From Planctomycetaceae bacterium (GTDB taxonomy: Bacteria > Planctomycetota > Planctomycetia > Pirellulales > Thermoguttaceae), in NCBI GenBank assembly GCA_031277105.1, contig JAISLW010000268.1, positions 34,698 through 98,697 of the forward strand: a stretch of 64,000 nucleotides of DNA. Reading direction: 5' to 3'. Positions 7,735-63,681 of this stretch are shown here, one piece after another. The translations under genes were made by a program, and so were the position numbers. The notes below the pieces were generated by a model. It saw only the letters and a list, made by a program, of their open reading frames with translations, did not search any database and was not told where the DNA came from. Position 1 is the stretch's first letter; each line of letters starts with the position of its first letter.

Positions 7735-7766
7735 ATCTACGATAGTAGAAATTAAGTAATACTTCT
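7735..7766 (-). ncRNA. Solitary Cas12a-repeat-like unit in a 5' leader
   Basis: On the minus strand positions 7754-7735 read TAATTTCTACTATCGTAGAT. This has the UCUAC-loop-GUAGA stem and A/U flanks of the Cas12a crRNA handle. It is preceded by AGAAGTAT, the right arm of the accessory hairpin seen in fuller copies at 49.9 and 63.6 kb; the left arm is missing here. It lies between the clamp-like gene and the UDG-exonuclease gene. Confidence 0.7.
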
Positions 7767-9706: not shown

Positions 9707-9727
9707 ATCTACGATAGTAAAAATTTT
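9707..9727 (-). ncRNA. Solitary Cas12a-repeat-like unit
   Basis: Minus strand reads AATTTTTACTATCGTAGAT; the stem C is U, leaving a G-U pair. It lies between the acidic tagged protein gene and the P2 promoter at 9620. Confidence 0.55.
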
Positions 9728-9740
9728 AACGTTCAAGAAA

Positions 9741-10043
9741 TTATCGCCGTCTGTTTTTCACGGGAATTTTCTTTTCCTCTTCCTCATCGTTTTCGACTTT
9801 GTCTTTATCTTTGGAATTTTTGACTTTGTCGTCTTCTTCGTCTTCATCTTCGTTTTCAACGTCCTCGTCTTCATCTTCGTTTTTTACGTCTTCGTCTTCG
9901 TCGTCATTTTCAACATCTTTGTCTTTATCTTTGGAATTTTTGACTTTTTTGTTGAAAACGGACATTGAGCTGAATCCGAGCGAAGTATTAGCATCGCCTT
10001 GCAACGCCTCAAAAGCGCTAATATCGGCTAATTCTATAGACAT
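9741..10043 (-). CDS. Small tagged protein with acidic low-complexity tail
   Basis: 100 residues. Residues 6-31 (ADISAFEALQ ... SSMSVFN) match the N-terminal tag shared with the proteins at 12852, 13534, 14046 and 22777. The rest is an Asp/Glu/Lys repeat tract (KDKDKDVENDDEDEDV and similar) ending in a basic KNRRR. The DNA under the tract is repetitive and the opposite strand is open by chance. The shared tag with unrelated tails suggests an address or packaging signal; see findings. Confidence 0.7.
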   Translation of the reverse strand: MSIELADISAFEALQGDANTSLGFSSMSVFNKKVKNSKDKDKDVENDDEDEDVKNEDEDEDVENEDEDEEDDKVKNSKDKDKVENDEEEEKKIPVKNRRR

Positions 10044-12851: not shown

Positions 12852-13265
12852 CTAAAATGATTGTTCTTCAGTCTCCTTTGAAAGCGGAAGGTAATATGAT
12901 TTATACGAACCTGTAACGCCTAGTTTATTTAACCTGTCAAAAGTAGGTTTAAGTTTGCTTATAACGCTAGTTTTTTCATCCGTGTATTGATCGTTAAGTT
13001 TATTTTCGTTTTCATCCATTAAGTGTCTATAATGCGTAGCCATACGGTAAATATCATTTTCTAGTTTTTTTACTTCGTCAATGAGTTTAGATATTTCTTT
13101 CACATCCTTGCGAGATATTGTACTTTGTTGTCTCTGTACTTTCCAAGTAACATTATTGACCGCTCGACCATTCTGAAAAGCGCCCATTTGACTACAAAAC
13201 GAATCATTAGCCTGATTCTGTAACGATTCAAATATCGCTATATCCGCAACATTTTGATTACTCAT
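12852..13265 (-). CDS. Small tagged coiled-coil protein
   Basis: 137 residues from ATG 13265, chosen because AGGAGAAATTTT precedes it and because the protein then begins with the shared tag MSNQNVADIAIFESLQ ... SQMGAFQNG. A longer frame to 13334 lacks support. After the tag comes a charged coiled coil (about residues 50-110). It belongs to the five-member tagged set; the tails are unlike one another. Confidence 0.75.
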   Translation of the reverse strand: MSNQNVADIAIFESLQNQANDSFCSQMGAFQNGRAVNNVTWKVQRQQSTISRKDVKEISKLIDEVKKLENDIYRMATHYRHLMDENENKLNDQYTDEKTSVISKLKPTFDRLNKLGVTGSYKSYYLPLSKETEEQSF

Positions 13266-13449
13266 AAAATTTCTCCTACATTTTTTGTTTATTTGTTTAC
13301 TATTTATCCTTTGTTCAAAGGAACGAATTGACATAGTACAAAAAAAAATAAAATTGTGTCACACACAAAATAATCCCCAAAATAATCCCCAAAGTGATCA
13401 TTTTATTATGTCTACACAAATTATCAAAATAAGTCAAACTATGTTTTGA

Positions 13450-13533: not shown

Positions 13534-13980
13534 ATGAAAAACCAAAACATCGCAGATATTAGCGTATTCGAATCAATACAAACAGATCAACATACTAAAA
13601 CTGGTATGAGTCAAATGAACGTATTTAACAACAATTGTTCGATTAAAAATAGCGCTCTTTTGGATAAAGCCGCTATGGACGTTAAAAAATATCGTGCAAA
13701 AGTAGATGCGTTTATCAAATTAGGCAATGAAGTAGCAAAACGACGTGAAAAATTCGTGTCAAAAGAACGCGACGCTATTTTTAAGTATGAAACGTCTGAC
13801 GAATACATTAAAGAACGCATACGAGTTTTTGGCGTGCTTGGCGCAAACCCTAACGATCCTGAAGCATTAGCCGACGAAAAACAAAGTAACGAAATAGCAA
13901 CAGCCAGATACGAAGCAGAACAGAAACTTGCCGCTTTGGTAAAAAGCGATCACGCATTATTTTGGAGATATTCTTATTAA
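13534..13980 (+). CDS. Small tagged coiled-coil protein (plus strand)
   Basis: 148 residues. Residues 1-35 are the shared tag (MKNQNIADISVFESIQ ... SQMNVFNNN), followed by CSIKNSALLDKA and a charged coiled coil. It shares ANPNDPEALADEKQ with the next gene, so these two are tandem paralogs. GGAG lies 8 bases before ATG. Upstream is TTGACA ... TATTAT at 13450-13475. It is one of three clearly plus-strand genes in the window, all tagged proteins. Confidence 0.8.
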   Translation: MKNQNIADISVFESIQTDQHTKTGMSQMNVFNNNCSIKNSALLDKAAMDVKKYRAKVDAFIKLGNEVAKRREKFVSKERDAIFKYETSDEYIKERIRVFGVLGANPNDPEALADEKQSNEIATARYEAEQKLAALVKSDHALFWRYSY

Positions 13981-14045: not shown

Positions 14046-14504
14046 ATGAAAAATCAAAACGTTGCCGATATTTCGGTATTTGAAAATTTACAAAACAACA
14101 CTAACAATTCTTTTGCCAGTCAAATGAACGTATTTAACGGCAATTGTTCAATTGAAAATAGCGCTATCTTTGACAAAGCCGAATCGTTAGTTAAAAAATT
14201 TGTCGCAGACATTGACTTACTTGTAAAAGAAGGTACAGAATTGGTAAAACTCCGAAATTCAGTCATAAGAATGCGACCTAAACGCAAAGATCAACGAGCA
14301 ATCGGAGACATATTAGATAAGGAACAAAAACGAATTACACAAGCGTTAAAAGAAAACCCTAACGACCCTGAAGCGTTAGCCGACCAAAAACAAGCCCTAT
14401 CTATACAAAAGGAATTTAACGCCAGCGACAGGGATATGTTTAATTTTATAACAACTAAACCTAATAAAGAAGTATTTCTGGACTCCATTTATCAATATTT
14501 TTAA
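14046..14504 (+). CDS. Small tagged coiled-coil protein (plus strand), tandem paralog
   Basis: 152 residues: tag MKNQNVADISVFENLQ ... SQMNVFNGN, then CSIENSAIFDKAESLVKKF and a coiled coil containing ENPNDPEALADQKQ. A ribosome-binding site AAAGGAAAC precedes ATG. It follows the previous tagged gene by 65 bases and ends at a strong bidirectional terminator. Confidence 0.8.
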   Translation: MKNQNVADISVFENLQNNTNNSFASQMNVFNGNCSIENSAIFDKAESLVKKFVADIDLLVKEGTELVKLRNSVIRMRPKRKDQRAIGDILDKEQKRITQALKENPNDPEALADQKQALSIQKEFNASDRDMFNFITTKPNKEVFLDSIYQYF

Positions 14505-22720: not shown

Positions 22721-22776
22721 ATTTTTGCGAGTAATTAACCAAAAACATTTATTTAATTTTGTACGGAAGGATAAAA

Positions 22777-23133
22777 ATGAAAAATCAAAACATAGCGGAT
22801 ATTTCCGCATTCGAATCAATCCAAACAAACGGTCAAACCCAAAATACTACAAATTCAATGGCGATTTTCAACGATATTGCAGACGCTAAAAAAGCAGCAG
22901 AACGCGTTACAAAAATCGCACAACAAGAAATTAACATACAAACAGAAGCCGACAACGCAATACAAGCGCTAACAGACGTATTACGCAAAGAACACAAAAG
23001 AATTTACGAAATCCAAGATAACGCAGAACGCGAAAAAGAAAAACAACAACTCAAATCCATCATCGCCACAATGAAAACGCCAAAAATCTACGATAAATCA
23101 CTGTTCATAAAAGGAATCGAAACGATACGATAA
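22777..23133 (+). CDS. Small tagged coiled-coil protein (plus strand)
   Basis: 118 residues from ATG 22777, chosen because GGAAGGATAAAA precedes it and the protein then begins with the shared tag MKNQNIADISAFESIQ ... NSMAIFND. After the tag is a charged coiled coil (DAKKAAERVTKIAQQEINIQ). Fifth member of the tagged set and 8 kb from the others. It ends at a strong bidirectional terminator. Confidence 0.75.
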   Translation: MKNQNIADISAFESIQTNGQTQNTTNSMAIFNDIADAKKAAERVTKIAQQEINIQTEADNAIQALTDVLRKEHKRIYEIQDNAEREKEKQQLKSIIATMKTPKIYDKSLFIKGIETIR

Positions 23134-23226: not shown

Positions 23227-24264
23227 TTAAAGCAACGACAAAAACTCCTTGATGTCTAAAAAGTAACTCGGATACGCCTCGCATATATACTGTACGTCTT
23301 TGACCGAGACCAGAACAATATCAACATCACCACTGACATAATCTGGATTCTGTTCACGTGATTTATAAAACGCCAACGCCAAATCTAACGTGTCAGAATT
23401 AACGCCAAAAATATGAATTGTATGACGCTTAAAATCAACTTCCAAAATACAATAATCATAATTTGTACCAGACGATTCACGAACCGTTATAGGCAACGAA
23501 GACAACTTTGCAATAAATGAATCTTTATTTAAGGCTGTCAATTTATTGTTTATTGTAGTTTCATCGTCGTTTGCGTAAATTTCTACAACAGGCATATTTT
23601 CCTTGACAGCAAACAGAGCGCTAACACACTTGAAAAAATCTGACCAGCCGTCAGCGTCATCCGTTTTACTTACCTTTAATCTCTTGCCGTAAACCTTATC
23701 AACCGTTTCGATAGCCATCGCCCATAAATGTTGATAACGAGTCCGAATCTGTAACTCAAACCGCAAACCGTCAAATTCGGGTCGTTCCGAATTAACATTT
23801 TTCAAAACAAAATGAACAGAACGATAACCCGTTTTACACGGATGCATAACTAAATCACGAACCCGCTCAATGACAAAACAATCTGATAAAAATTCTTTTT
23901 GACGCTCAATAAAATCAGTAAACAACCGATTATTGTCTGATTGCGAATTCGTAGGCGTAAGAACATAACGCATTCCGACTATATCTTGTATTTGCGATAA
24001 TTTTAAGCGGGGAATTCGTTTTAATTTATCAATAATGGCTATTGCACGTTTTGCTCTGGAAGACACGGTTATATCAAAACCGCAACCGTTAGAATTAACT
24101 ATATCAGCAGGATTACACGACGTTTGGGGAATAAAATCAAACAAAAAATGAGTATGCAATTCCCGCCAAGAGTTCAATACGGTCAAAGCGTCCTCATTTT
24201 TTGGATCACTAATAAGCGTATCGCCCGCATCATCTATTTCTTTTAGATTGTATTCATTAATCAT
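23227..24264 (-). CDS. RelA/SpoT-domain protein (putative alarmone synthetase)
   Basis: 345 residues. The RelA/SpoT synthetase core spans about 70-190: SSRAKRAIAIIDKLKRIP, IQDIVGMRYVLTP, PCKTGYRSVHFVLKN, FELQIRTRYQHLWAMAIETV. There is no HD hydrolase, TGS or ACT domain, so it is a small-alarmone-synthetase type with a C-terminal extension (about 200-345) of unknown fold. Stand-alone synthetases of this type include toxins in anti-phage systems such as CapRel. It is directly followed upstream by RloB-like and AAA ATPase genes, suggesting one functional island. Confidence 0.75.
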   Translation of the reverse strand: MINEYNLKEIDDAGDTLISDPKNEDALTVLNSWRELHTHFLFDFIPQTSCNPADIVNSNGCGFDITVSSRAKRAIAIIDKLKRIPRLKLSQIQDIVGMRYVLTPTNSQSDNNRLFTDFIERQKEFLSDCFVIERVRDLVMHPCKTGYRSVHFVLKNVNSERPEFDGLRFELQIRTRYQHLWAMAIETVDKVYGKRLKVSKTDDADGWSDFFKCVSALFAVKENMPVVEIYANDDETTINNKLTALNKDSFIAKLSSLPITVRESSGTNYDYCILEVDFKRHTIHIFGVNSDTLDLALAFYKSREQNPDYVSGDVDIVLVSVKDVQYICEAYPSYFLDIKEFLSLL

Positions 24265-24280
24265 TAAATATATCTCCTAA

Positions 24281-25084
24281 CTAATCCCGTATCTTTAATT
24301 TATTTATAATTTTTTTGTATGATTTGTTTTTTATTTTATTTTTTGCACTCATTTTGTCCAATTCATCTTTAATGAAAGGCAACAGTTGTTCTGCTAATCG
24401 AAACATATTGGTAGAAAATAGCTTTGGTATGCCGTTGTTGTCTTCTTCGTAGTTAGATTTAGAATTGACGATTGCGGTTTCAATATCGAAAATGGCGTAT
24501 CGCGGATCAATACCGCCTTTGACTTTACGGTTAAGATAGGTCTTAAACTCTTGGCTTATTTTAAGAGCATTTTCAGGAATGCTAAAGTCTTTGGGCTTCT
24601 GATTGAATTTTCCGTAATAAAGCCAAATTTCCAAACAAGAATTACTAACTATCAAAGAGATATTTAACTCTTCGCATTTCGGTTTAATTCTCAACAAATC
24701 ATTCATAAAATGATCTACGTCAGACACGATGAAAATATTATCCGGTTCGTCGTCTTGACTTGATTGGTATCGTCTTTGTTCGTCTTCGGCTTTTTGTAAC
24801 AAGCCGTCTGGATGCAATTGATTGGGATCAGCGACAAAACTAATTTTTATTCTGCGGAATTCGTCCTGTCTTTCAATAATTTTGAAATACTTCTTTTCGC
24901 GTACTTCACCGCCGGAAATAATTACAAAAAAAGTTTTAGGCGATTTCACGCCAGATACTTTTTTGTGATTTACGTCCACAACATTAACGGGCATAACCGA
25001 AAGTTCTGAAACGACAACATCCGTTTTTTGTGCTTCCTGCCCTAATACAAGTTTTTCAGAAATTGGTTTTGTGTAACTTCTCAT
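24281..25084 (-). CDS. RloB-like (Toprim-fold) abortive-infection protein
   Basis: 267 residues. RloB marks: FFVIISGGEVREKKYFKIIE, then IFIVSDVDHFMNDLL with the D-x-D, then LIVSNSCLEIWLYYGKFN, the N-S/P-C-x-E-x-W block. RloB pairs with an AAA ATPase in the Rlo loci and in the AbiL system; here the ATPase gene overlaps by 4 bases. The N-terminal 45 residues are less conserved. Toprim relatives cleave or bind nucleic acid; the activity here is untested. Confidence 0.8.
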   Translation of the reverse strand: MRSYTKPISEKLVLGQEAQKTDVVVSELSVMPVNVVDVNHKKVSGVKSPKTFFVIISGGEVREKKYFKIIERQDEFRRIKISFVADPNQLHPDGLLQKAEDEQRRYQSSQDDEPDNIFIVSDVDHFMNDLLRIKPKCEELNISLIVSNSCLEIWLYYGKFNQKPKDFSIPENALKISQEFKTYLNRKVKGGIDPRYAIFDIETAIVNSKSNYEEDNNGIPKLFSTNMFRLAEQLLPFIKDELDKMSAKNKIKNKSYKKIINKLKIRD

Positions 25085-26397
25085 TCTTTAATACAGTCTA
25101 TACTGATTTCGTCAATTACAGGCGTAGCGCCATAACGACCTTCTAAATAACCATTTTCGATATTCGACGTATTATGCAACTTAAAATCGTTCAACGAGTA
25201 CAACTTCGTGTTTCCTTCAAATTTTTCTGTAAACCAAATTTCATCCGGTCGAACTAATTCATGACGATTTAACAAATGCGTTACATGCGTAGTGAAAATA
25301 AGTTGTCCCCTAGCATTGTTGTTAGCGTAAAAACGCAAGAGTTCAAACATTAAACGAGGATGTAGACTACTTTCAATTTCGTCAATAAAAATAACTTTCC
25401 CTTCCTGTATTACACTCCATAACGCAGGAATTAGAGTTAAAAGTCGCACAGTTCCATCCGATTGAGCGGATATTTTCATTGCTTTATGATAACCACATTG
25501 TCCTACTTGGTCGAACAATAATTCCTGTACCGTTTTTTTACCTTCATGAATTGTAACATTCAATACGTTACGATTATTTTGAAGTTGTGCAATATCACTA
25601 TTTTCCGACAATGGATTACTATTGATGATTTGATTTAACTCTGTTGCATTTGTAGATTCCGTAATTAATTTTTCAAAAGGAATATCGTGGATTTTAATCT
25701 CATCAATACCAATTCCGATATTTCTAAAAAAATTATTTGCGAAACTTAAAATTTGCGGTTTTTGCGACAACAATTTTATAAGCATTGGAATAGTACTGTT
25801 TGCTAATATGACTTCAATTTTTTTGGAAAACCAATCGTAAACATGTTTGACTTTTTCACTCGCAAGAACAGGAAATTGTAAATTCAAGGGGATCAATGAA
25901 GATCGGGAATTCATGGAAAGTAATTTTTTAACAAGAGGTTCATTTTGAATTGACGGAGCAACAATACTTGTTCCTTTTCTTTCAAATATTAGTTCATCAT
26001 CTGTTTTTCCTACGCCTGATTTTGATAATTTTTCAAAAACTTCTTTTTTGCTGATTTCAACGTTATAAATGTAATATTCTTCTCGATGAAAAAATTCTAT
26101 CTCAAAAGATATTGTCTGCGATTTTTCTTTTGTAAGTTGGAAAATATAATCATTCCAAGTAATTGATTTCAAGAAATTTTTGCGTGTTACAAATTCACGC
26201 AAAAAGATAACAGCTTTGATAAAATTTGATTTGCCTGATCCATTAGCGCCGTAAATTGCGGTTTGTTTCAATACAGGTATTTCCATATTGTCATGTATAT
26301 GGAGTTGAAAACTTTTGTGTTCAATATTCGGAAACATATCAAACACAGTTTCTCCGTTAAACGATAGGAAGTTTTTTATCTTTAACCTTAGTAACAT
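25081..26397 (-). CDS. AAA15/RloA-like ATPase, partner of RloB
   Basis: 438 residues. LRLKIKNFLSFNGETVFDMF is the N-terminal ABC-type strand. Walker A is AIYGANGSGKSNFIKAVIFL at about 50. Signature and Walker B regions are QSDGTVRLLTLIPALW and VIFIDEIESSLHPRLMFELL, then IFTTHVTHLL. This matches RloA/AbiL-type ATPases. The stop overlaps the RloB start (ATGA), so the two are coupled. A solitary crRNA-like repeat lies in the 5' leader, only 10 bases before ATG. Confidence 0.85.
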   Translation of the reverse strand: MLLRLKIKNFLSFNGETVFDMFPNIEHKSFQLHIHDNMEIPVLKQTAIYGANGSGKSNFIKAVIFLREFVTRKNFLKSITWNDYIFQLTKEKSQTISFEIEFFHREEYYIYNVEISKKEVFEKLSKSGVGKTDDELIFERKGTSIVAPSIQNEPLVKKLLSMNSRSSLIPLNLQFPVLASEKVKHVYDWFSKKIEVILANSTIPMLIKLLSQKPQILSFANNFFRNIGIGIDEIKIHDIPFEKLITESTNATELNQIINSNPLSENSDIAQLQNNRNVLNVTIHEGKKTVQELLFDQVGQCGYHKAMKISAQSDGTVRLLTLIPALWSVIQEGKVIFIDEIESSLHPRLMFELLRFYANNNARGQLIFTTHVTHLLNRHELVRPDEIWFTEKFEGNTKLYSLNDFKLHNTSNIENGYLEGRYGATPVIDEISIDCIKE

Positions 26398-26406
26398 AAT
26401 TTTTTA

Positions 26407-26441
26407 ATCTACAATAGTAGAAGTATATGTGGTCTTATCAC
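26407..26441 (-). ncRNA. Solitary full-length Cas12a-repeat-like unit
   Basis: A 35-base element on the minus strand: GTGATAAGACC at its 5' end and ACTTCTACTATTGTAGAT at its 3' end, the layout and length of a type V-A CRISPR repeat. It is preceded by GACATATTGT, a degenerate P2 -10 box, so transcription would start at its edge. The ATG of the AAA ATPase follows after 9 bases. The rest of 26442-26635 has no gene. Confidence 0.7.
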
Positions 26442-31317: not shown

Positions 31318-31402
31318 TTGACGTTGTAACGAAACAAGTTACAACCCGTACCAACACGTCAAATAACGACGTTATACTTCTACTATCGTAGAGTATATGA
31401 AA
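31318..31402 (+). ncRNA. Plus-strand small RNA cassette with Cas12a-repeat-like hairpin
   Basis: TTGACG at 31318-31323, 16 bases, TACAAC at 31340-31345, then a predicted start near 31352. The RNA would carry ACGTC and GACGT arms and then ATACTTCTACTATCGTAGAG. Only the first hairpin remains; the second repeat seen at 39.7, 49.9 and 54.8 kb is absent. It runs antisense into the methyltransferase gene's end. Confidence 0.5.
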
Positions 31403-32413: not shown

Positions 32414-32485
32414 TTGACGTTAAAACGATTATAATAATTATCAACACGTCAAGTAACGATGTTAAACTTATATTATTGTCGATCA
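32414..32485 (+). ncRNA. Degenerate plus-strand small RNA cassette
   Basis: TTGACG and TATAAT are present but only 10 bases apart, then TATCAACACGTCAAGTAACG as in other copies, then a mutated hairpin. Probably a decayed copy; it overlaps the 3' end of the sigma-like gene. Confidence 0.4.
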
Positions 32486-35685: not shown

Positions 35686-36228
35686 TTAATGCGTATCAAC
35701 TGCAAATCGTAAATAACCGTCGCGTTTGCCAAAAGTATCTTCTATCGTTGTATCGTTAAGTTGGTGTTCCCATTCAAAAACGCCATTCAATACAAGCGAC
35801 GCTAACGGTTCACGATAATCTACAACTTCATTTAACACTGCGCCAAAATCCTCAAATGCACACCCGTAATCTTTTAACTTCGATCTGACTTCGGATGTTG
35901 ATTTATCGTCAAACGCCCATTCAATCCGAATATTATACGGTTTCAACATAGCGTCTATTTTAGCAGGTAAATCGCTGTACAATTTGGGGAAAAACGCTAC
36001 CGTCATCCATACTAAATCCAAAAATTCACCCGCTTTGAAATTTGAAACGCAAGCGTTAATAAACTCTTCGCTGCTGCTAACGTCGTCTAACTCAACGTCA
36101 AATGTATTAAATTTTGGCGTAAACACCTTTTCTTCAGGAAACGGTTGTATAAACTCCGGACTCTTTATCCACATCGCATGAGCCGACGACGAATTCGTCT
36201 CAAAAGCATTCGATCTAATCTGTAACAT
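35686..36228 (-). CDS. FETNSS-family protein 1
   Basis: 180 residues. It starts with MLQIRSNAFETNSSSAHAMW, a motif found at the start of many uncharacterised phage and bacterial proteins. The ribosome-binding site AAGGAGGTTAAAA is strong. Acidic overall. The two genes upstream are paralogs with the same start and the same layout (a NIRIEW-type strand, then helices). Function unknown. Confidence 0.7.
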   Translation of the reverse strand: MLQIRSNAFETNSSSAHAMWIKSPEFIQPFPEEKVFTPKFNTFDVELDDVSSSEEFINACVSNFKAGEFLDLVWMTVAFFPKLYSDLPAKIDAMLKPYNIRIEWAFDDKSTSEVRSKLKDYGCAFEDFGAVLNEVVDYREPLASLVLNGVFEWEHQLNDTTIEDTFGKRDGYLRFAVDTH

Positions 36229-36266
36229 TTTTAACCTCCTTTAATTGAAAAGTAAAAAATTAAAAT

Positions 36267-36761
36267 TTAACTTGTATAAACGCCAAGCATAGTATGACTA
36301 CTTGCTAAACGTTTTTGAAACTCAAAAATATCGCCTTCATCGGCGTGAATTACGTTTGACGAGTCAGACAATATTAACGAAATTAACAATTCAGGCTGCT
36401 CAACTAAATCCTTCATATAATCTGCAAACATAAAATCTTTAATTGAATTAATATCGCGAACCTCTTCTTCTGTCAATATATCAAGTGTCCAATTGACGCG
36501 GATGTTATATTGTTTTAAGATTTCTGTTATCCGCTTAAACAAACTCATATTATCAAACAAACCGGCTGAAATTAGCCACGTCCAAATAACATTCAAAAAT
36601 TCACCAGATTTATACGGTTCGTATTCCCATCCTAAACTGCTGAAATGAGCGGTCATAACTTGCTCTTCCGCAAACGGCGCTATCTTGTCTTGCGTCTTAA
36701 CCCAAAACGCATGGATTGCAGATGAATTAGTTTCAAAAACACTTTGTCTGATTTGTAACAT
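36267..36761 (-). CDS. FETNSS-family protein 2
   Basis: 164 residues: MLQIRQSVFETNSSAIHAFW start, LKQYNIRVNWTLDILTEEEV in the middle, LISLILSDSSNVIH near the end. Each block has a counterpart in the neighbouring paralogs. Tandem duplication followed by divergence. Confidence 0.7.
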   Translation of the reverse strand: MLQIRQSVFETNSSAIHAFWVKTQDKIAPFAEEQVMTAHFSSLGWEYEPYKSGEFLNVIWTWLISAGLFDNMSLFKRITEILKQYNIRVNWTLDILTEEEVRDINSIKDFMFADYMKDLVEQPELLISLILSDSSNVIHADEGDIFEFQKRLASSHTMLGVYTS

Positions 36762-36763
36762 TT

Positions 36764-37294
36764 TTAATTACGTTTCATGTAATATTTGAAGCCATCCTTT
36801 TTGATGTCTTCCGGATCGCAATAACAACCGCCGTCGTCATTACCTGTATAAAAACACGATTCATCACATAAACAAGCGGAAACAAATAATTCAGGGTTGT
36901 CTAACAATTCATCTAATATAGGTAAAAACTCATCAGCGTGATCCACATTATAATCGTTGCCGTAATCGGACGGCGTATCCAATTGATAATTCCACGTACC
37001 GATTTTAATATTGTACGGTTTTAACGCCGCTTCTATCTTGTTCTTATACGCTTCTATCGCTTGCGTATCAACTTTATCAACAGGTTGATACGATTCATAA
37101 ACAGTAAGTACCGCCGTCCAACAATAATCCACAAACCAACTAGATGAATAATGATCATAATCCCAACCGAACACGCCCAAACCAACATCCCACACTCGCT
37201 CTGTACTTGTATCAGGCTTGAAATCTTCCTTAATACAAAACGTATGCACCGACGACGAATTCGTCTCAAAAGCATTCGATCTAATTTGTAACAT
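36764..37294 (-). CDS. FETNSS-family protein 3
   Basis: 176 residues from ATG 37294; the ATG three codons upstream lies at the ribosome-binding site AGGATG, so the later one is preferred by comparison with paralogs. MLQIRSNAFETNSSSVHTFC start and LKPYNIKIGTWNYQLDTPSD block match the others. The C-terminal part has extra cysteines (LCDESCFY; GGCYCDPED), possible metal ligands unique to this copy. Confidence 0.7.
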   Translation of the reverse strand: MLQIRSNAFETNSSSVHTFCIKEDFKPDTSTERVWDVGLGVFGWDYDHYSSSWFVDYCWTAVLTVYESYQPVDKVDTQAIEAYKNKIEAALKPYNIKIGTWNYQLDTPSDYGNDYNVDHADEFLPILDELLDNPELFVSACLCDESCFYTGNDDGGCYCDPEDIKKDGFKYYMKRN

Positions 37295-37345
37295 TTTTAA
37301 CATCCTGTACTAATTATGAATCCCGAAGGGGAAAGGGGGAAAGGG

Positions 37346-38619: not shown

Positions 38620-39429
38620 CTAGATAATGCCGAAAGCGACTAACAAGTTTATTGCTTTTCTTGCGGCGGCGCCGTCTTGCAACATTAAATCGTTACCTGC
38701 GAAATAACTCATTAACGTATTATTCAATTCGTCTGTATTCGCCAAAACGTACAGCGCCAAACAACCTGCCGCCGTTTCAAACGCAATTTCTTGCATATCG
38801 TCGCAATGTACGCTTGCGACGTAATTTTCATTGTTCTTTTTTACTAGCGTTATTTCCAAATCGGCGTATTTATACGTTTTGCTCGTGTCTGCACCGTCCG
38901 TTTCACACTCTTCAATTAATTCCATTTCCAATTGTTTGACTATTAAATCAGCCGCCGCTAAAAAAATCGAAGCGTACATATCGTTTAACAAACGCGTTGT
39001 AGCGTCTTCGTACTCTGAAATAAATTTACGCACAGGTTCAAACGTTTCCGAAAACGTTACCGATAAATATTGACGTGCAAAATCCAATTGTAAATCGTCA
39101 ACAGTGAAACAAGACTCTAACGTTGCGTTATTACGTTCTGCTATTTTTTGGTTGATGTATTCGTATTTCTGTTCACGGTTACCTGGAATAGAAATCAAAT
39201 AATTCCTGACATTATCGTCAATTTTGGCGGCGACGCAAGCGATAGAAGCCGCATCGTCGTCGCCGTCAACAGTCGCCCAAAAATCAGTATCACTTGCAGG
39301 CGGTACGCCGCTTATCACCCACGCCTTCAAATAATCATAAAAAAGACGATGATAATTCCAATACCCGACAACTTCGTTCAAGCAACTTGCTAAACGACTG
39401 TAAACCGATTTCGATTTAATATAACCCAT
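38620..39429 (-). CDS. Hypothetical protein
   Basis: 269 residues, acidic and helical, with NNENYVASVHCDDMQEIAFE near the middle-to-end. No motif recognised. A P1 promoter lies about 100 bases upstream, and a degenerate repeat ending GTAGATG lies just before the ATG. Confidence 0.6.
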   Translation of the reverse strand: MGYIKSKSVYSRLASCLNEVVGYWNYHRLFYDYLKAWVISGVPPASDTDFWATVDGDDDAASIACVAAKIDDNVRNYLISIPGNREQKYEYINQKIAERNNATLESCFTVDDLQLDFARQYLSVTFSETFEPVRKFISEYEDATTRLLNDMYASIFLAAADLIVKQLEMELIEECETDGADTSKTYKYADLEITLVKKNNENYVASVHCDDMQEIAFETAAGCLALYVLANTDELNNTLMSYFAGNDLMLQDGAAARKAINLLVAFGII

Positions 39430-39526
39430 AACATCTACGATAGCAAAAAATAAATATCGTTACAATAATAACGACATCATTGACATGAACAATATTGTCA
39501 ACGAATGTTTAATTCTTATACTTAAT

Positions 39527-39584: not shown

Positions 39585-39695
39585 TTAACGTTGCAACGAA
39601 ACAAATTACAATAATTATCAACGTATCAAGAATGACGCTATACTTCTACTATTGCAGAAGCAGAAGTATTATTTAATTTCTACTATCGTAAGATT
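39585..39695 (+). ncRNA. Plus-strand small RNA cassette ending in Cas12a-repeat-like hairpin
   Basis: TTAACG at 39585, 16 bases, TACAAT at 39607-39612, predicted start near 39619. Then come a TTATCAACGTATCAAG lead, a hairpin with arms ATACTTCT and AGAAGTAT, and TAATTTCTACTATCGTAAGAT at 39674-39694 with one inserted A. It runs convergent with the gene ending at 39697. Confidence 0.6.
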
Positions 39696-40278: not shown

Positions 40279-41409
40279 TTACAACTTGTGTTCTAGCAGA
40301 TACGCATTAGAAATTGTCTTGAACGAGTATTGCGAAAACTCGCCGCGCTCTTTGTACACCAGCCCTTCACGTATTTTGTCGGATAATTTGCTCCGCCCAA
40401 ACGCCGTATCGACCAGTTCCTTAACCGACGTTTCGTCCAAGCACAACGCATAAGACTCGCATATTACCGGAACATGTTTAAGCCCCAACCAATTCACAAT
40501 ATCGTACCGGACATACGCGTCCACATATTTCTGCGTGTCAATATTGAACACGTCGAAAACGTAGAGATCGACGTCGTTCAAGCCCAGCCGATTATCCGAA
40601 ACATTCGTTCCAACGATCTCGCCCTGTATAGCCAAATTAATATGCAACTCTCTGCACAATTCGGGCAACTTTTCGTGGAGGTTATATTTGACGGACATTT
40701 CCTCGTAAATACTTCTAGAAAAACCAAACCGTTTTTCAAATTCGTCCTTGAAAAATATACGCTTGATCCAATGCTTAAACTTCGCAAAAAGGCTTCTGTA
40801 AAATTCCGTACAAGCGACCTCATAATTCCGCGAGCAAACCCCGAAATGATTACATCGGTAGTAAATCGTTACCGAAGTGCCGTCTAGTTTTTCAGTAACC
40901 TCGTACTGCTTACCGTTCAGAGCCTCCAAACGGACTGTGTCAAAAGACTGAATCCGTTCTTGGTCTGTCTTGCGGATAAACGCAGGGAAACGCCGCATCG
41001 GACTGCCGCCAATCATACGCGTAGGGCGATTATCGGTAGGTTCGTAAAGTTTAACTTTGAGTAGTTCCGTTACGTCGTCGCCTTCTTTTGGTTTGGTAAT
41101 TTCGGGGAAGTCAGATAGCGGCAACAGCAGACCTTGCGATATTTGTTTTTTCAATTTAATCGTCCGCAATCTGTAGCCGTCCGTACCGTTCATCTTTTTG
41201 TCAGAGCGTCCGTCTAAAAATGCGTAGCGTTCTTCTTTTGGCAAGAACGAATCGATCTCAAAGTACACGCCGAAATCGCCGACGTTAAAATCGCCTTTTT
41301 TCGCTACGCATACCCAACCGTTAGTCGTCATTGTTGCGACTTCGATAAAGTCCGCGCCTTCAATCGGGCGTAGTTCTTTTACTTTCGTTACAGTTGCTAA
41401 TTTTCTCAT
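40279..41409 (-). CDS. RNA ligase with N-terminal OB-like domain
   Basis: 376 residues. Residues 1-110 form an OB-like domain (ATVTKVKELRPIEGADFIEV; GDFGVYFEIDSFLP). The nucleotidyltransferase motif I is VTEKLDGTSVTIYY at about 168, with the adenylated lysine in EKLDGT. Later motifs include LAIQGEIVG and a final GLVYKERGEFSQYSFK. This is the Rnl2/DRB0094-like organisation. With the adjacent HAD phosphatase it may repair cleaved tRNA. A 22-codon remnant of a second copy of its 5' end lies at 54.5 kb. Confidence 0.85.
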   Translation of the reverse strand: MRKLATVTKVKELRPIEGADFIEVATMTTNGWVCVAKKGDFNVGDFGVYFEIDSFLPKEERYAFLDGRSDKKMNGTDGYRLRTIKLKKQISQGLLLPLSDFPEITKPKEGDDVTELLKVKLYEPTDNRPTRMIGGSPMRRFPAFIRKTDQERIQSFDTVRLEALNGKQYEVTEKLDGTSVTIYYRCNHFGVCSRNYEVACTEFYRSLFAKFKHWIKRIFFKDEFEKRFGFSRSIYEEMSVKYNLHEKLPELCRELHINLAIQGEIVGTNVSDNRLGLNDVDLYVFDVFNIDTQKYVDAYVRYDIVNWLGLKHVPVICESYALCLDETSVKELVDTAFGRSKLSDKIREGLVYKERGEFSQYSFKTISNAYLLEHKL

Positions 41410-41430
41410 ACTTTTATGTTAATTTTTATG

Positions 41431-42096
41431 TTAATTACTTTTGCTCTGCGGTAAATATACGGTCTCTTCCCACGCTTGCGTCCAATCAAATCCTTGACTG
41501 GTAAAATTCTCATAAAATCTATTGATAAAATCATCTGCATCGATATAATCTATTCCGAAATTTTTGGCACAGCGTTTATCACTATCTGAAGATTGACCTT
41601 TACGACCGGATGCGTCGCCTACCATTATCATTTCGCGTTTATGGAATTTTTGCGGCAAGTGGCGGGCTATAAAAAAGTCTAACATTCCCGTATTCGGTTT
41701 ATGCATCCAGTCGTCAGGGTCATTAGCATCGCAACAAATGCCGTCAACTTCGATTTCTTTTTGCGTTGTCGCGTAACGTTCTTTAATCCGCTTATCATGT
41801 CCGCAATAATCTTCAATTGCAGCACAAACGAATTGTAATTTTTTATCAAAAGAGCTTTCTTTCATAAACCCTTTTTCGATACCGCCTTGATTGGATGTTA
41901 TCCAGATATATTCAACGTCAAAAGTAGCGGCAAAATTACATATCGCTTCAACGACGTGTGAGCGAAACTGCATATCGCCAATATAGTGAGGAGTCGTATA
42001 ACCCCACTTTTGCGCCTCCACAGATTCAATAATTGTTCCGTCAAGATCAAGAAACAATACTTTTTTACGTTTTGTACGATCTAATTTTACTGTCAT
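41431..42096 (-). CDS. HAD-family polynucleotide 3'-phosphatase-like protein
   Basis: 221 residues. HAD motif I VLFLDLDGTIIES at about 13-25 (DLDGT), motif II WITSNQGGIEKGF, a conserved HKPNTGMLDFF lysine region, and motif IV MIMVGDASGRKGQSSDSD. This matches the PNK3P/HAD-IIIA type that removes 3' phosphates. There is no kinase domain. It lies 21 bases upstream of the RNA ligase, so end-healing plus sealing is the likely joint function. Confidence 0.75.
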   Translation of the reverse strand: MTVKLDRTKRKKVLFLDLDGTIIESVEAQKWGYTTPHYIGDMQFRSHVVEAICNFAATFDVEYIWITSNQGGIEKGFMKESSFDKKLQFVCAAIEDYCGHDKRIKERYATTQKEIEVDGICCDANDPDDWMHKPNTGMLDFFIARHLPQKFHKREMIMVGDASGRKGQSSDSDKRCAKNFGIDYIDADDFINRFYENFTSQGFDWTQAWEETVYLPQSKSN

Positions 42097-42121
42097 TGAC
42101 CATCCTCCTTATATTGTAAAG

Positions 42122-42427
42122 TTAGCCTAATCGTAAATTGACTATTTTATGAACAGATAATAAATGATTTAGTTTTGTTCTTGTGTATTCAAAATACCCT
42201 AACGCTGACAAATAGCGATAGCAACAATCTTTCGTATTATGCATTTTCAACGATTCCAAACATTTGTCGCGTAACTCTCCACGCATGTTATAACTGCATA
42301 TCGCTTCATACACTTCATCGGGAACTTTGTCCTTGACTTGATCGCGTTGGATTGACCATCCGTTCATTAAGCAATGAACGATATAATCTTGGTACTTCCA
42401 CATAGGATCTACTATTTGACCACTCAT
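42122..42427 (-). CDS. Small hypothetical protein
   Basis: 101 residues, helical, with PMWKYQDYIVHCLMNGWSIQ and LKMHNTKDCCYRYLSALGYF. Not recognised. It has a P1 promoter and the recurring 5'-UTR hairpin, and leads into the phosphatase-ligase pair 25 bases downstream. Confidence 0.6.
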   Translation of the reverse strand: MSGQIVDPMWKYQDYIVHCLMNGWSIQRDQVKDKVPDEVYEAICSYNMRGELRDKCLESLKMHNTKDCCYRYLSALGYFEYTRTKLNHLLSVHKIVNLRLG

Positions 42428-42429
42428 TA

Positions 42430-42536
42430 TTTATTACTTGTTTGTTTGTTGTAAATTAACGTTACTTACTACGCCGTAGGTAATATTTAATTCTTATAGT
42501 TACATTCTATTGATAAAATGAAAATATCAAAGTAAA
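42430..42536 (-). promoter_or_regulatory. P1 promoter with 5'-UTR hairpin
   Basis: Minus strand: TTGATA, 15 bases, TAGAAT at 42504-42530, then an imperfect hairpin whose arms lie near 42455-42492. A degenerate copy of the leader at 47.74 and 49.64 kb. Confidence 0.55.
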
Positions 42537-42539
42537 AAA

Positions 42540-42887
42540 TTAAAATTTTGTAGATATTTCTGCTGTTATAGATTTCATAAATTCATGATCTTGACCGCAA
42601 GTAAGTCTCGCCAAATGTACGGAGGGCGGCGTTAATCGCACGTTTGGTATTACCGTAAAACCGTCTTTCACAAAACATTCTAATTGATGATAAATTATTT
42701 CGCAAAATCGCTTGCAAGCGGAATCAAAATCCGAAAACGACTCAACTAATTGGACAACGAAACTGACGTTAAATTCGCAATTTTCAGCGGTCTGTTTAAT
42801 AACCCCAATTTTGTATCCGTTTAATTGTGCATCGAAATTACAAGGTATTAACGGGTTTTGTACAAATTCCAAATAAAAAACAACCAT
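42540..42887 (-). CDS. Small paralogous-family protein (FxVxL-x-G-x-I type)
   Basis: 115 residues. Pattern: short beta strand, then LNGYKIGVIKQTAENCEFNV, then a helix (FSDFDSACKRFCEIIYHQLE), then a final strand. The same pattern recurs in proteins at 52116, 52499, 52895, 53908, 56736 and 62887. Members are highly diverged. Function unknown. Confidence 0.6.
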   Translation of the reverse strand: MVVFYLEFVQNPLIPCNFDAQLNGYKIGVIKQTAENCEFNVSFVVQLVESFSDFDSACKRFCEIIYHQLECFVKDGFTVIPNVRLTPPSVHLARLTCGQDHEFMKSITAEISTKF

Positions 42888-42909
42888 AAAAATTCCTTTT
42901 CAAGATAAT

Positions 42910-42935
42910 TTAATTTCTACTGTTATACGTAAGAT
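42910..42935 (+). ncRNA. Degenerate solitary repeat next to tRNA-like gene
   Basis: TAATTTCTACTGTTATACGT then AAGATC: the repeat with a disrupted loop and an inserted A, on the plus strand, 5 bases from the 3' end of the tRNA-like gene. Confidence 0.4.
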
Positions 42936-42939
42936 CAAA

Positions 42940-43014
42940 AAACGGCGGCGGGACTTGAACCCGCATCTCAGTCATAACTGATCGCGCGATATGTTGCCAT
43001 TACACCACGCCGTT
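42940..43014 (-). tRNA. tRNA-like gene, isotype unassigned
   Basis: Acceptor arms AACGGCG and CGCCGTT pair perfectly. The A-box TGGTGTAATGG and a T-arm GCGGG-TTCAAGT-CCCGC are canonical. The middle is not: 26 bases lie between the D-arm and T-arm instead of about 23, and the only clear stem there is TCAG-TTATGA-CTGA, so a normal 7-base anticodon loop cannot be drawn. No CCA is encoded. Either a degenerate tRNA or a tRNA-like RNA; it follows a P2 promoter and a crRNA-like repeat. Confidence 0.55.
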
Positions 43015-43018
43015 TCCA

Positions 43019-43064
43019 ATCTACGATAGTAATTCTACAATAGTAGAAATATAAGGTCTTATCA
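43019..43064 (-). ncRNA. Cas12a-repeat-like unit fused upstream of tRNA-like gene
   Basis: Minus strand: GTGATAAGACC, then TTATATTTCTACTATTGTAG at 43034-43053, then a second partial copy ending ACTATCGTAGAT, 4 bases before the tRNA-like gene. A P2 -10 box (GGCATATAGT) abuts its 5' end, so an RNA would start at the repeat. Confidence 0.65.
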
Positions 43065-46712: not shown

Positions 46713-47189
46713 TTAGGTGACTATACACAAGCCGCCGTGAACATTCGGGCAATATTCATACTCGCGGTTTTTAAGCAATTTATCTATATCCCATTTATAC
46801 AATTCGACGGCGTTACTATATTTGTTTAGCGATTTACTACTTGATACTAATTGACTTGTTTTGATTAATTTTTGGCAATAATCTAAACCTTGGTTTAACG
46901 CAGTTATTTCATCTTTTATCTGTTCGATAGGCGGAAACCGTTCTACGGTTGAACTCCTGTACGCTGCCATATCAAGTACATCCTCGTAACCGCTATCATC
47001 CAGAGACCGCAAAAATATAAAATCCCATTCGCATATTTTTGCATCCCAATAAAGCCAAATAGTCAAATACGAATTATGATAAAAATTATATCTGTACAAA
47101 TTAGACTTAATCAATATTATCGGCGGATTATTATCCATCCACCATGCGTCAAAAATTAAATTAGCAGTCGATGCAATTAGTTTATCCAT
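46713..47189 (-). CDS. Small paralogous-family protein (IWLYWD type)
   Basis: 158 residues from ATG 47189 (AAGGAG, 6 bases). The segment LTIWLYWDAKICEWDFIFLR matches LSIWLEFDFNAARWEWLLLR of the protein at 48664, and the helical second halves also align (NKYSNAVELY versus NRYRNVILTA). The two are paralogs of unknown function. Confidence 0.65.
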   Translation of the reverse strand: MDKLIASTANLIFDAWWMDNNPPIILIKSNLYRYNFYHNSYLTIWLYWDAKICEWDFIFLRSLDDSGYEDVLDMAAYRSSTVERFPPIEQIKDEITALNQGLDYCQKLIKTSQLVSSSKSLNKYSNAVELYKWDIDKLLKNREYEYCPNVHGGLCIVT

Positions 47190-47211
47190 CACAAACTCCT
47201 TCTTATTCGTT

Positions 47212-47244
47212 ATCTACAACAGTAGAAATATAAGGTCTTATCAC
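47212..47244 (-). ncRNA. Solitary full-length Cas12a-repeat-like unit
   Basis: 33 bases on the minus strand: GTGATAAGACC at the 5' end and TATTTCTACTGTTGTAGAT at the 3' end. The loop UGUU equals that of the Francisella Cas12a repeat as I recall it. It starts at the P2 -10 box and ends 22 bases before the ATG at 47189. Confidence 0.75.
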
Positions 47245-49801: not shown

Positions 49802-49907
49802 TTGAGATACTCTTAACGAAAACATCTATAATATTTACCCGCACGTCAAGTAACGACGTTATACTTCTACTATTGCAGAAGTATCATTAATTTTTACTAT
49901 TGTAGAT
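49802..49907 (+). ncRNA. Plus-strand small RNA cassette ending in Cas12a-repeat-like hairpin
   Basis: TATAAT at 49827; the -35 is uncertain (TTGAGA at 49802 with a 19-base spacer). Then ACGTC at 49843 pairing with GACGT at 49855, a hairpin with arms ATACTTCT and AGAAGTAT at 49861-49884, and TAATTTTTACTATTGTAGAT at 49888-49907. It overlaps, antisense, the 3' end of the gene at 49859. Confidence 0.65.
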
Positions 49908-54677: not shown

Positions 54678-54780
54678 TTGGCATTGAAACGAAACTGGTT
54701 ATAATAATTATCAACTCGTCAAGTAACGACGTTATACTTCTATTTTTGTAGAAGTAACATTAATTTCTACTATTGTAGAT
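54678..54780 (+). ncRNA. Plus-strand small RNA cassette ending in a perfect Cas12a-repeat-like hairpin
   Basis: TTGGCA at 54678, 16 bases, TATAAT at 54700-54705, predicted start near 54712. Then CGTC and GACG arms, a hairpin with arms ATACTTCTA and TAGAAGTA, and TAATTTCTACTATTGTAGAT exactly at 54761-54780. It continues antisense into the gene ending at 54780. The cleanest copy in the window. Confidence 0.75.
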
Positions 54781-57147: not shown

Positions 57148-57255
57148 AAATTTATTACCATCCAAATTTGACTCAACAAAACAACTATTGACCATCAATG
57201 TAAACACAAAACAACACACTAAAAAAACAACCGATAACGACCCGATAAAATTCAA

Positions 57256-57720
57256 CCGATCGCTAACGTTTATCGCTAACGTTTATCGCTAACGCTTATC
57301 GCTAACGCTTATCGCTAACGTTTATCGCTAACGTTTATCGCTAACGTTTATCGCTAACGCTTATCGCTAACGCTTACTGCTAACGCTTATCAATAACGCT
57401 TATCGCTAACGTTTATCGCTAACGTTTATCGCTAACGTTTGTTGACCGGTTGACCGATCGCTAACGCTTATCGCTAACGTTTATCGCTAACGCTTATCGC
57501 TAACGCTTATCAATAACGCTTATCGCTAACGCTTATCAATAACGCTTATCGCTAACGCTTATCGCTAACGTTTATCGCTAACGTTTATCGCTAACGTTTG
57601 TTGACCGGTTGACCGATCGCTAACGCTTATCGCTAACGTTTGTTGACCGGTTGACCGATCGCTAACGCTTATCGCTAACGTTTGTTGACCGGTTGACCGA
57701 TCGCTAACACTTATCGCTTA
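57256..57720. repeat. Iteron array, probable replication origin
   Basis: About three dozen copies of the 12-base unit ATCGCTAACGYT with a few ATCAATAACGCT and ACTGCTAACGCT variants. It is interrupted by four copies of TTGACCGGTTGACCGATCGC near the right half. The strict 12-base phase and few variants suggest a protein-binding array. It lies 650 bases from the PrimPol-like gene. Confidence 0.75.
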
Positions 57721-57723
57721 CTG

Positions 57724-63510: not shown

Positions 63511-63558
63511 CGTCGTTATAATAATCTCATACTTCTAATATTGTAAATTTATCTATTA

Positions 63559-63599: not shown

Positions 63600-63681
63600 A
63601 TCTACCATAGTAGAAATTAAATAATACTTTTGCAATAGTAAAAGTATAAATGTCATTATATTGTTAAGATAGAATGGTCAA
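63600..63681 (-). ncRNA. Minus-strand small RNA cassette with full Cas12a-repeat-like unit
   Basis: P1 promoter TTGACC, 15 bases, TATAAT at 63655-63681. Then a hairpin with arms ATACTTTT and AAAAGTAT at 63624-63647, then TAATTTCTACTATGGTAGAT at 63600-63619. Same order as the plus-strand cassettes but on the other strand and with a P1 promoter. Confidence 0.7.

Follow-up and report, generated by a model that had tools for sequence, protein, structure and literature searches.

A large planctomycete prophage carries a candidate multi-copy set of Cas12a handle mimics and a putative AbiL–CapRel-type abortive-infection operon

RNA anti-CRISPRs (Racrs) are known mainly as solitary repeat units, and the enzymes of the toxic group that contains CapRel pyrophosphorylate tRNA 3' ends. 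RacrVA1–3 inhibit Cas12a in vivo when expressed (PMC10651486). In CapRel, roles have been described for residues R79, R116 and Y155 and for the YXXY motif (PMC9712102), and AbiL is an AAA-controlled pair whose AbiLii-type RloB protein is TOPRIM-related (PMC10440598). Here we analysed a stretch of 64,000 nucleotides (the window) from a Planctomycetaceae bacterium. We favour, at somewhat better than even confidence, a joint reading in which a large prophage carries a lysogen-protecting abortive-infection operon, composed of AbiL and a CapRel-type toxin-antitoxin, together with at least 12 mimics of the host Cas12a handle, spread across the prophage, which would represent a multi-copy type V-A Racr candidate.

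The window lies within C529, a contig of 171,649 bases that belongs to a 5.19-Mb genome bin. C529 encodes a terminase large subunit and other phage proteins, and its right end has a tyrosine recombinase (C529:163807-164916). Beyond this lies a cyclophilin gene; 19 of the 21 genus genomes carry it, with identity of up to 75% elsewhere. The integrase and the host cyclophilin gene indicate an integrated prophage with host chromosome on the right side; C529 is without the left prophage junction, and the prophage–host link rests partly on binning. This confirms the initial annotation in its view that the defence-type genes are phage-borne. Most C529 genes are on the minus strand, as are the three operon genes. 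The terminase large subunit has an intein-type splicing domain (L026:315-2174, on C529).

The ORF listing and Pfam recovered the three genes at the positions noted earlier, in the same order and all on the minus strand:

25081..26397, minus strand: AbiLi-type AAA ATPase (AAA_21/AAA_15; Pfam, PADLOC)
24281..25084, minus strand: AbiLii-type RloB protein, TOPRIM-like (Pfam, PADLOC)
23227..24264, minus strand: CapRel-type fused toxin-antitoxin, PDC-S33 (Pfam RelA_SpoT; PADLOC, structure match)

The layout is operon-like, as had been proposed. The AAA and RloB genes do overlap by 4 bases (ATGA), and the close spacing of the RloB and RelA_SpoT genes also stands, with a gap of 16 bases instead of the 17 first given and an AGGAG ribosome site inside it. 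PADLOC ties each family to phage defence, again as claimed, with E-values of 1.5e-77 for AbiLi, 8.2e-16 for AbiLii and 1.3e-71 for the candidate system PDC-S33. AbiLi contains Walker A (GANGSGKS) and Walker B (VIFIDE) motifs, and an SDVD acidic motif was seen by eye in the AbiLii-type RloB protein. An AAA ATPase and an RloB protein in tandem, called by PADLOC and sharing a 4-nt overlap, form an AbiL pair, and this order of AAA ATPase then RloB/TOPRIM-like protein in overlapping genes is shared with the AAA + OLD_TOPRIM group (PARIS AriAB; PMC10440598). The pair differs from known AbiL in its identity of only ~31% to the nearest plasmid relatives examined and in its neighbour, which is CapRel here and CD-NTase genes there. 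Judging from relatives, AbiLi would restrain the AbiLii nuclease until infection. No match to RloB was found in sequenced phages. Single-sequence AlphaFold models were too poor for use, with pLDDT 34 for RloB and 39.5 for CapRel, in which the pseudo-zinc-finger fold of the C-terminal domain was sought.

The third gene had been read as alarmone-synthetase-like, and its matches point elsewhere. The protein matches CapRel-SJ46 (7ztb/9erv) at 2e-10 over its full length with ~25% identity, far better than the small alarmone synthetases, which it matches at 5e-4 in the synthetase domain only. The gene is thus unlikely to encode an alarmone synthetase. Among solved structures, the nearest to its product is CapRel-SJ46, which is a prophage immunity protein, and in tblastn the SJ46 protein is the sole match among sequenced phages. 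In the alignment, the CapRel toxSYNTH residues are present (ATP-coordinating R79 and R116, G-loop Y155), as is the YXXY autoinhibition motif near the C-terminus, in the form AYPSYF. Full-length homology, toxSYNTH residues, YXXY and prophage setting are therefore common to this protein and CapRel-SJ46, the fused toxin-antitoxin of Salmonella prophage SJ46 (PMC9712102), whereas the C-terminal region is divergent here and the gene is placed behind an AbiL pair. By analogy with relatives, a phage trigger would open CapRel, and tRNA pyrophosphorylation would follow.

A conserved three-gene unit, as the initial annotation envisaged, did not emerge from the gene-neighbourhood check, which found no second case in the neighbourhoods examined: AbiL was absent beside CapRel relatives in 8 of 8, and CapRel was absent beside the AbiL pair in 2 of 2 (Agrobacterium and Fusobacterium plasmids). 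The CapRel relatives are located on plasmids and phage-like elements; one of them, with 42% identity, comes from a Planctomycetaceae bin, where its short contig lacks AbiL. A peptide-seed search of IMG/VR returned no CapRel or AbiLi relatives. Since no relative with all three genes was found, the island appears to be a local, new pairing of two known defence systems, and AbiL + CapRel would add a natural pairing to the known defence modules. In the two plasmids (L106, L107), the AAA–RloB pair adjoins CD-NTase-like genes, annotated in Agrobacterium and recognised by eye in Fusobacterium, an adjacency that hints at an AbiL–CBASS link.

The crRNA-like repeat reported in the leader of the first gene is real and matches the end of the host Cas12a repeat, although its weight had been underestimated, as it is one of about a dozen copies. 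The AbiLi leader copy reads TTCTACTATTGTAGAT, ends 9 bases before the AbiLi ATG and is identical, at 16/16 bases, to the 3' end of the host repeat GTCAATAAAGACTCAAAAATTTCTACTATTGTAGAT. The host is of the subtype that a type V-A Racr would address: the bin holds two full-length cas12a genes, on C56 and C377, and 62 array repeats with the 16-mer, 18 of them beside cas12a on C56 and 44 on C214. No cas12a was found on the prophage contig. For the C377 gene (L029:2028-6179, G000:C377), no repeat array is visible on the 8.4-kb contig.

At up to 2 mismatches, the window contains 12 copies, against 0.06 expected (100 shuffles). Copies on C529 are restricted to C529:42432-101775, and across the 5.19-Mb bin, at up to 1 mismatch and outside the two arrays, nine lie in C529 and one in each of two further contigs. 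They are mostly intergenic, often paired, and constitute repeat-like units in a mobile element, outside arrays and unlinked to cas genes. Their orientation relative to genes is mixed (7 along, 7 against). The sites in the window are:

7735..7750, minus strand: handle mimic, full 19-nt AATTTCTACTATCGTAGAT, upstream of DNA polymerase gene
9707..9722, minus strand: handle mimic TTTTACTATCGTAGAT
26407..26422, minus strand: handle mimic in AbiLi leader (sequence match)
31378..31393, plus strand: hairpin of plus-strand module, without second hairpin
32468..32483, plus strand: degenerate copy of plus-strand module
39433..39448, minus strand: degenerate handle directly before the ATG of gene 38620-39429
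39644..39659, plus strand: first hairpin of paired unit; the second, further downstream, has one inserted base
43033..43048, minus strand: handle-like hairpin directly upstream of tRNA-Ile (42939-43015)
47212..47227, minus strand: handle mimic, loop TGTT, before ribosome site of gene 46713-47192
49865..49907, plus strand: paired unit, hairpin 1 and handle (49892-49907)
54678-54705: promoter-like TTGGCA-16-TATAAT ahead of the 54738 unit
54738..54780, plus strand: paired unit, hairpin 1 and full handle (54765-54780)
63533..63548, plus strand: degenerate copy
63600..63645, minus strand: paired unit, hairpin 1 (63626-63645) and full handle (63600-63615), behind TTGACC-15-TATAAT

Three settings recur. 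TAT(A/T)GTGATAAGACC leaders carry the handle just before AbiLi, tRNA-Ile and gene 46713-47192, in 3 of 3 cases; plus-strand modules have CGTCAAGTAACGACGTTATAC (four copies) and then a hairpin, with a full second handle in two of them (49865 and 54738) and a cut-short or degenerate form at 31378 and 32468; and a TTGAC-15-TATAAT sequence precedes two hairpins at 63600 in the window and at C529:101732 outside it. The seven plus-strand copies are antisense to flanking genes and would thus need their own promoters. Promoter-like sites, including TTGGCA-16-TATAAT (54678-54705) and the two TTGAC-15-TATAAT modules, were no more frequent than in shuffles.

The 19-nt handle (AAT plus the 16-mer) is conserved, and directly after its last U the flank falls to random level (0.48 versus 0.49 expected), so that conservation stops at U-1, the repeat/spacer boundary. 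This profile is drawn from six copies chosen as second hairpins or full handles; the 16-mer served as search key, so its conservation is partly a product of selection; this does not apply to the sharp edge or to the AAT. Because the copies share a common origin, they do not count as independent observations. Except for hairpin 1, almost every copy has a terminal T, which corresponds to U-1 of the U-1/U-16 pair. U-10 is part of the Cas12a pseudoknot (PMC8789034). The AbiLi copy has a C at the U-17 position, which would weaken the pseudoknot contact. Hairpin 1 is a perfect DNA dyad, ACTTCTAC-TATT-GTAGAAGT, with a paired C-G to T-A change in the 63600 unit, and RNA folding z-scores of two units were -5.5 and -3.8. 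Against the 5' half of the host repeat, prophage copies match at 6-10 of 20 bases, and the handle half alone is common to both. This poor match, together with the lack of array spacing, disfavours a decayed host array as the origin of the copies.

A host array spacer matches C529:76399 with 5 mismatches in 28 and a TTTA PAM, inside a kinase/phosphatase-like gene that adjoins an RNA ligase. Although imperfect, the match is of the kind expected if the host had acquired immunity against a related phage; no further convincing match to C529 was found among the other host array spacers. The RNA ligase, the kinase/phosphatase-like protein and tRNA-Ile are clustered at 40279-43015, and such a grouping occurs in phages that repair cut tRNAs.

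What was computed for the Racr candidate is that the copies match the host repeat in sequence, occur more often than chance predicts and have predicted hairpins with conserved handle features, that the prophage belongs to a Cas12a-bearing bin, and that a host array contains a related spacer. Mimicry of the Cas12a handle would most simply explain the identity to the host repeat together with the asymmetric loop, the terminal U-1 and the abrupt edge of conservation. Transcription of the copies, Cas12a binding and Cas12a inhibition are steps that we infer from sequence: handle-bearing transcripts would be bound by host Cas12a and cut just 5' of the handle, and Cas12a would be loaded with useless guides that compete with real crRNAs. 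Such titration appears the likeliest function because RacrVA1–3 inhibit Cas12a when expressed (PMC10651486). In common with RacrVA1–3 and the solitary repeat units described with them (PMC10651486), the copies are phage-borne repeat mimics outside arrays that match the host's own subtype, are expected to form hairpin RNA and lie near putative promoters. They differ in being a dozen dispersed copies in one prophage and not one, in the pairing of many copies with a perfect hairpin, in the location of several in mRNA or tRNA leaders, in mimicking the 19-nt handle alone, and in an activity that is predicted here.

The mixed orientation relative to genes counts against the Racr candidate, and the perfect hairpin 1 dyad keeps alive another interpretation, namely that a prophage repressor binds the dyads as DNA operators or stoperators across the early region, with the resemblance to the Cas12a handle coincidental or secondary. 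A perfect dyad fits a protein-binding site, the sites lie near putative promoters in both orientations to genes and often in pairs 27-28 bases apart, and the element is a temperate phage. We nevertheless regard operators as unlikely: the spacer of the TCTAC-N4-GTAGA dyads in C529 is conserved and asymmetric, with a T[A/G]TN loop on one strand in 9 of 9, a non-palindromic T closes most sites, which are preceded by AAT, and the host 16-mer recurs without any mismatch at two sites. An operator for a host regulator is excluded, since within the bin the palindrome TTCTACNNNNGTAGAA is confined to this prophage.

The hairpins could also be 5' leader elements that stabilise or punctuate phage RNA, with no role for Cas12a. 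Although the units fold well and the phage has a second leader family with long hairpins behind a common promoter-like block, a plain hairpin needs neither 16-19 bases of identity to the host handle nor its loop nor its unpaired last U, and we judge this explanation very unlikely. A further proposal, by analogy with CRISPR-regulated toxins, makes the AbiLi leader handle a guard: host Cas12a bound there would repress AbiL–CapRel, and the Abi genes would be released once another phage inhibited Cas12a or caused its loss. Given its end 9 bases before the ATG, bound Cas12a would cover the start codon, and this position suggests that Cas12a control of AbiL is possible. Handles also precede tRNA-Ile and unrelated genes, however, and the pseudoknot contact of the AbiLi copy would be weaker, so that we hold the guard to be highly improbable; if true, host Cas12a would serve the prophage as a sensor. 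Should the Racr candidate hold, it would be a case in which RNA titrates a class 2 effector by dosage, through about a dozen mimics in leaders and intergenic spaces, and its copies would serve as a natural test of the importance of individual handle positions. The arrangement also raises the question of whether phages control their own genes through CRISPR effectors.

Among 20 IMG/VR records with an exact 20-nt handle, many of which are fragments in which copies may be missed, a single copy at up to 2 mismatches is present in 17, two copies are present in two, and one has an extra palindrome counted on both strands. A 298-kb IMG/VR record has three copies. Fifteen IMG/VR loci with related terminases (159 kb) yielded no handle copies, and the two-hairpin unit, exact or gapped, was absent from IMG/VR. 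The present prophage stands out by its copy number from the IMG/VR phages with the handle. Solitary handles in sister genomes mostly resemble worn arrays, and those in IMG/VR phages (L120, L127, L141, L146) often lie shortly before a ribosome site or start codon.

Several minor features accompany these elements. The long hairpin leaders occur in four copies (42434, 47721, 49620 and 54996), with ~17 bp in two and an AT-rich promoter-like block ahead. At 35686-37303 there are three tandem paralogues with the N-terminus MLQIRxxxFETNSS, and at 57207-57721 a tandem 13-base repeat, ATCGCTAACGTTT, is interrupted by TTGACCGGTTGACCG blocks and may be an origin or protein-binding array. An N-terminal motif like NQNxADISxFExLQ, ahead of unrelated tails, is common to at least six small phage proteins and may be a targeting or packaging tag:

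9741-10043, 12852-13334, 13534-13980, 14046-14504, 22759-23133 and C529:159381-160025: NQNxADISxFExLQ-like proteins
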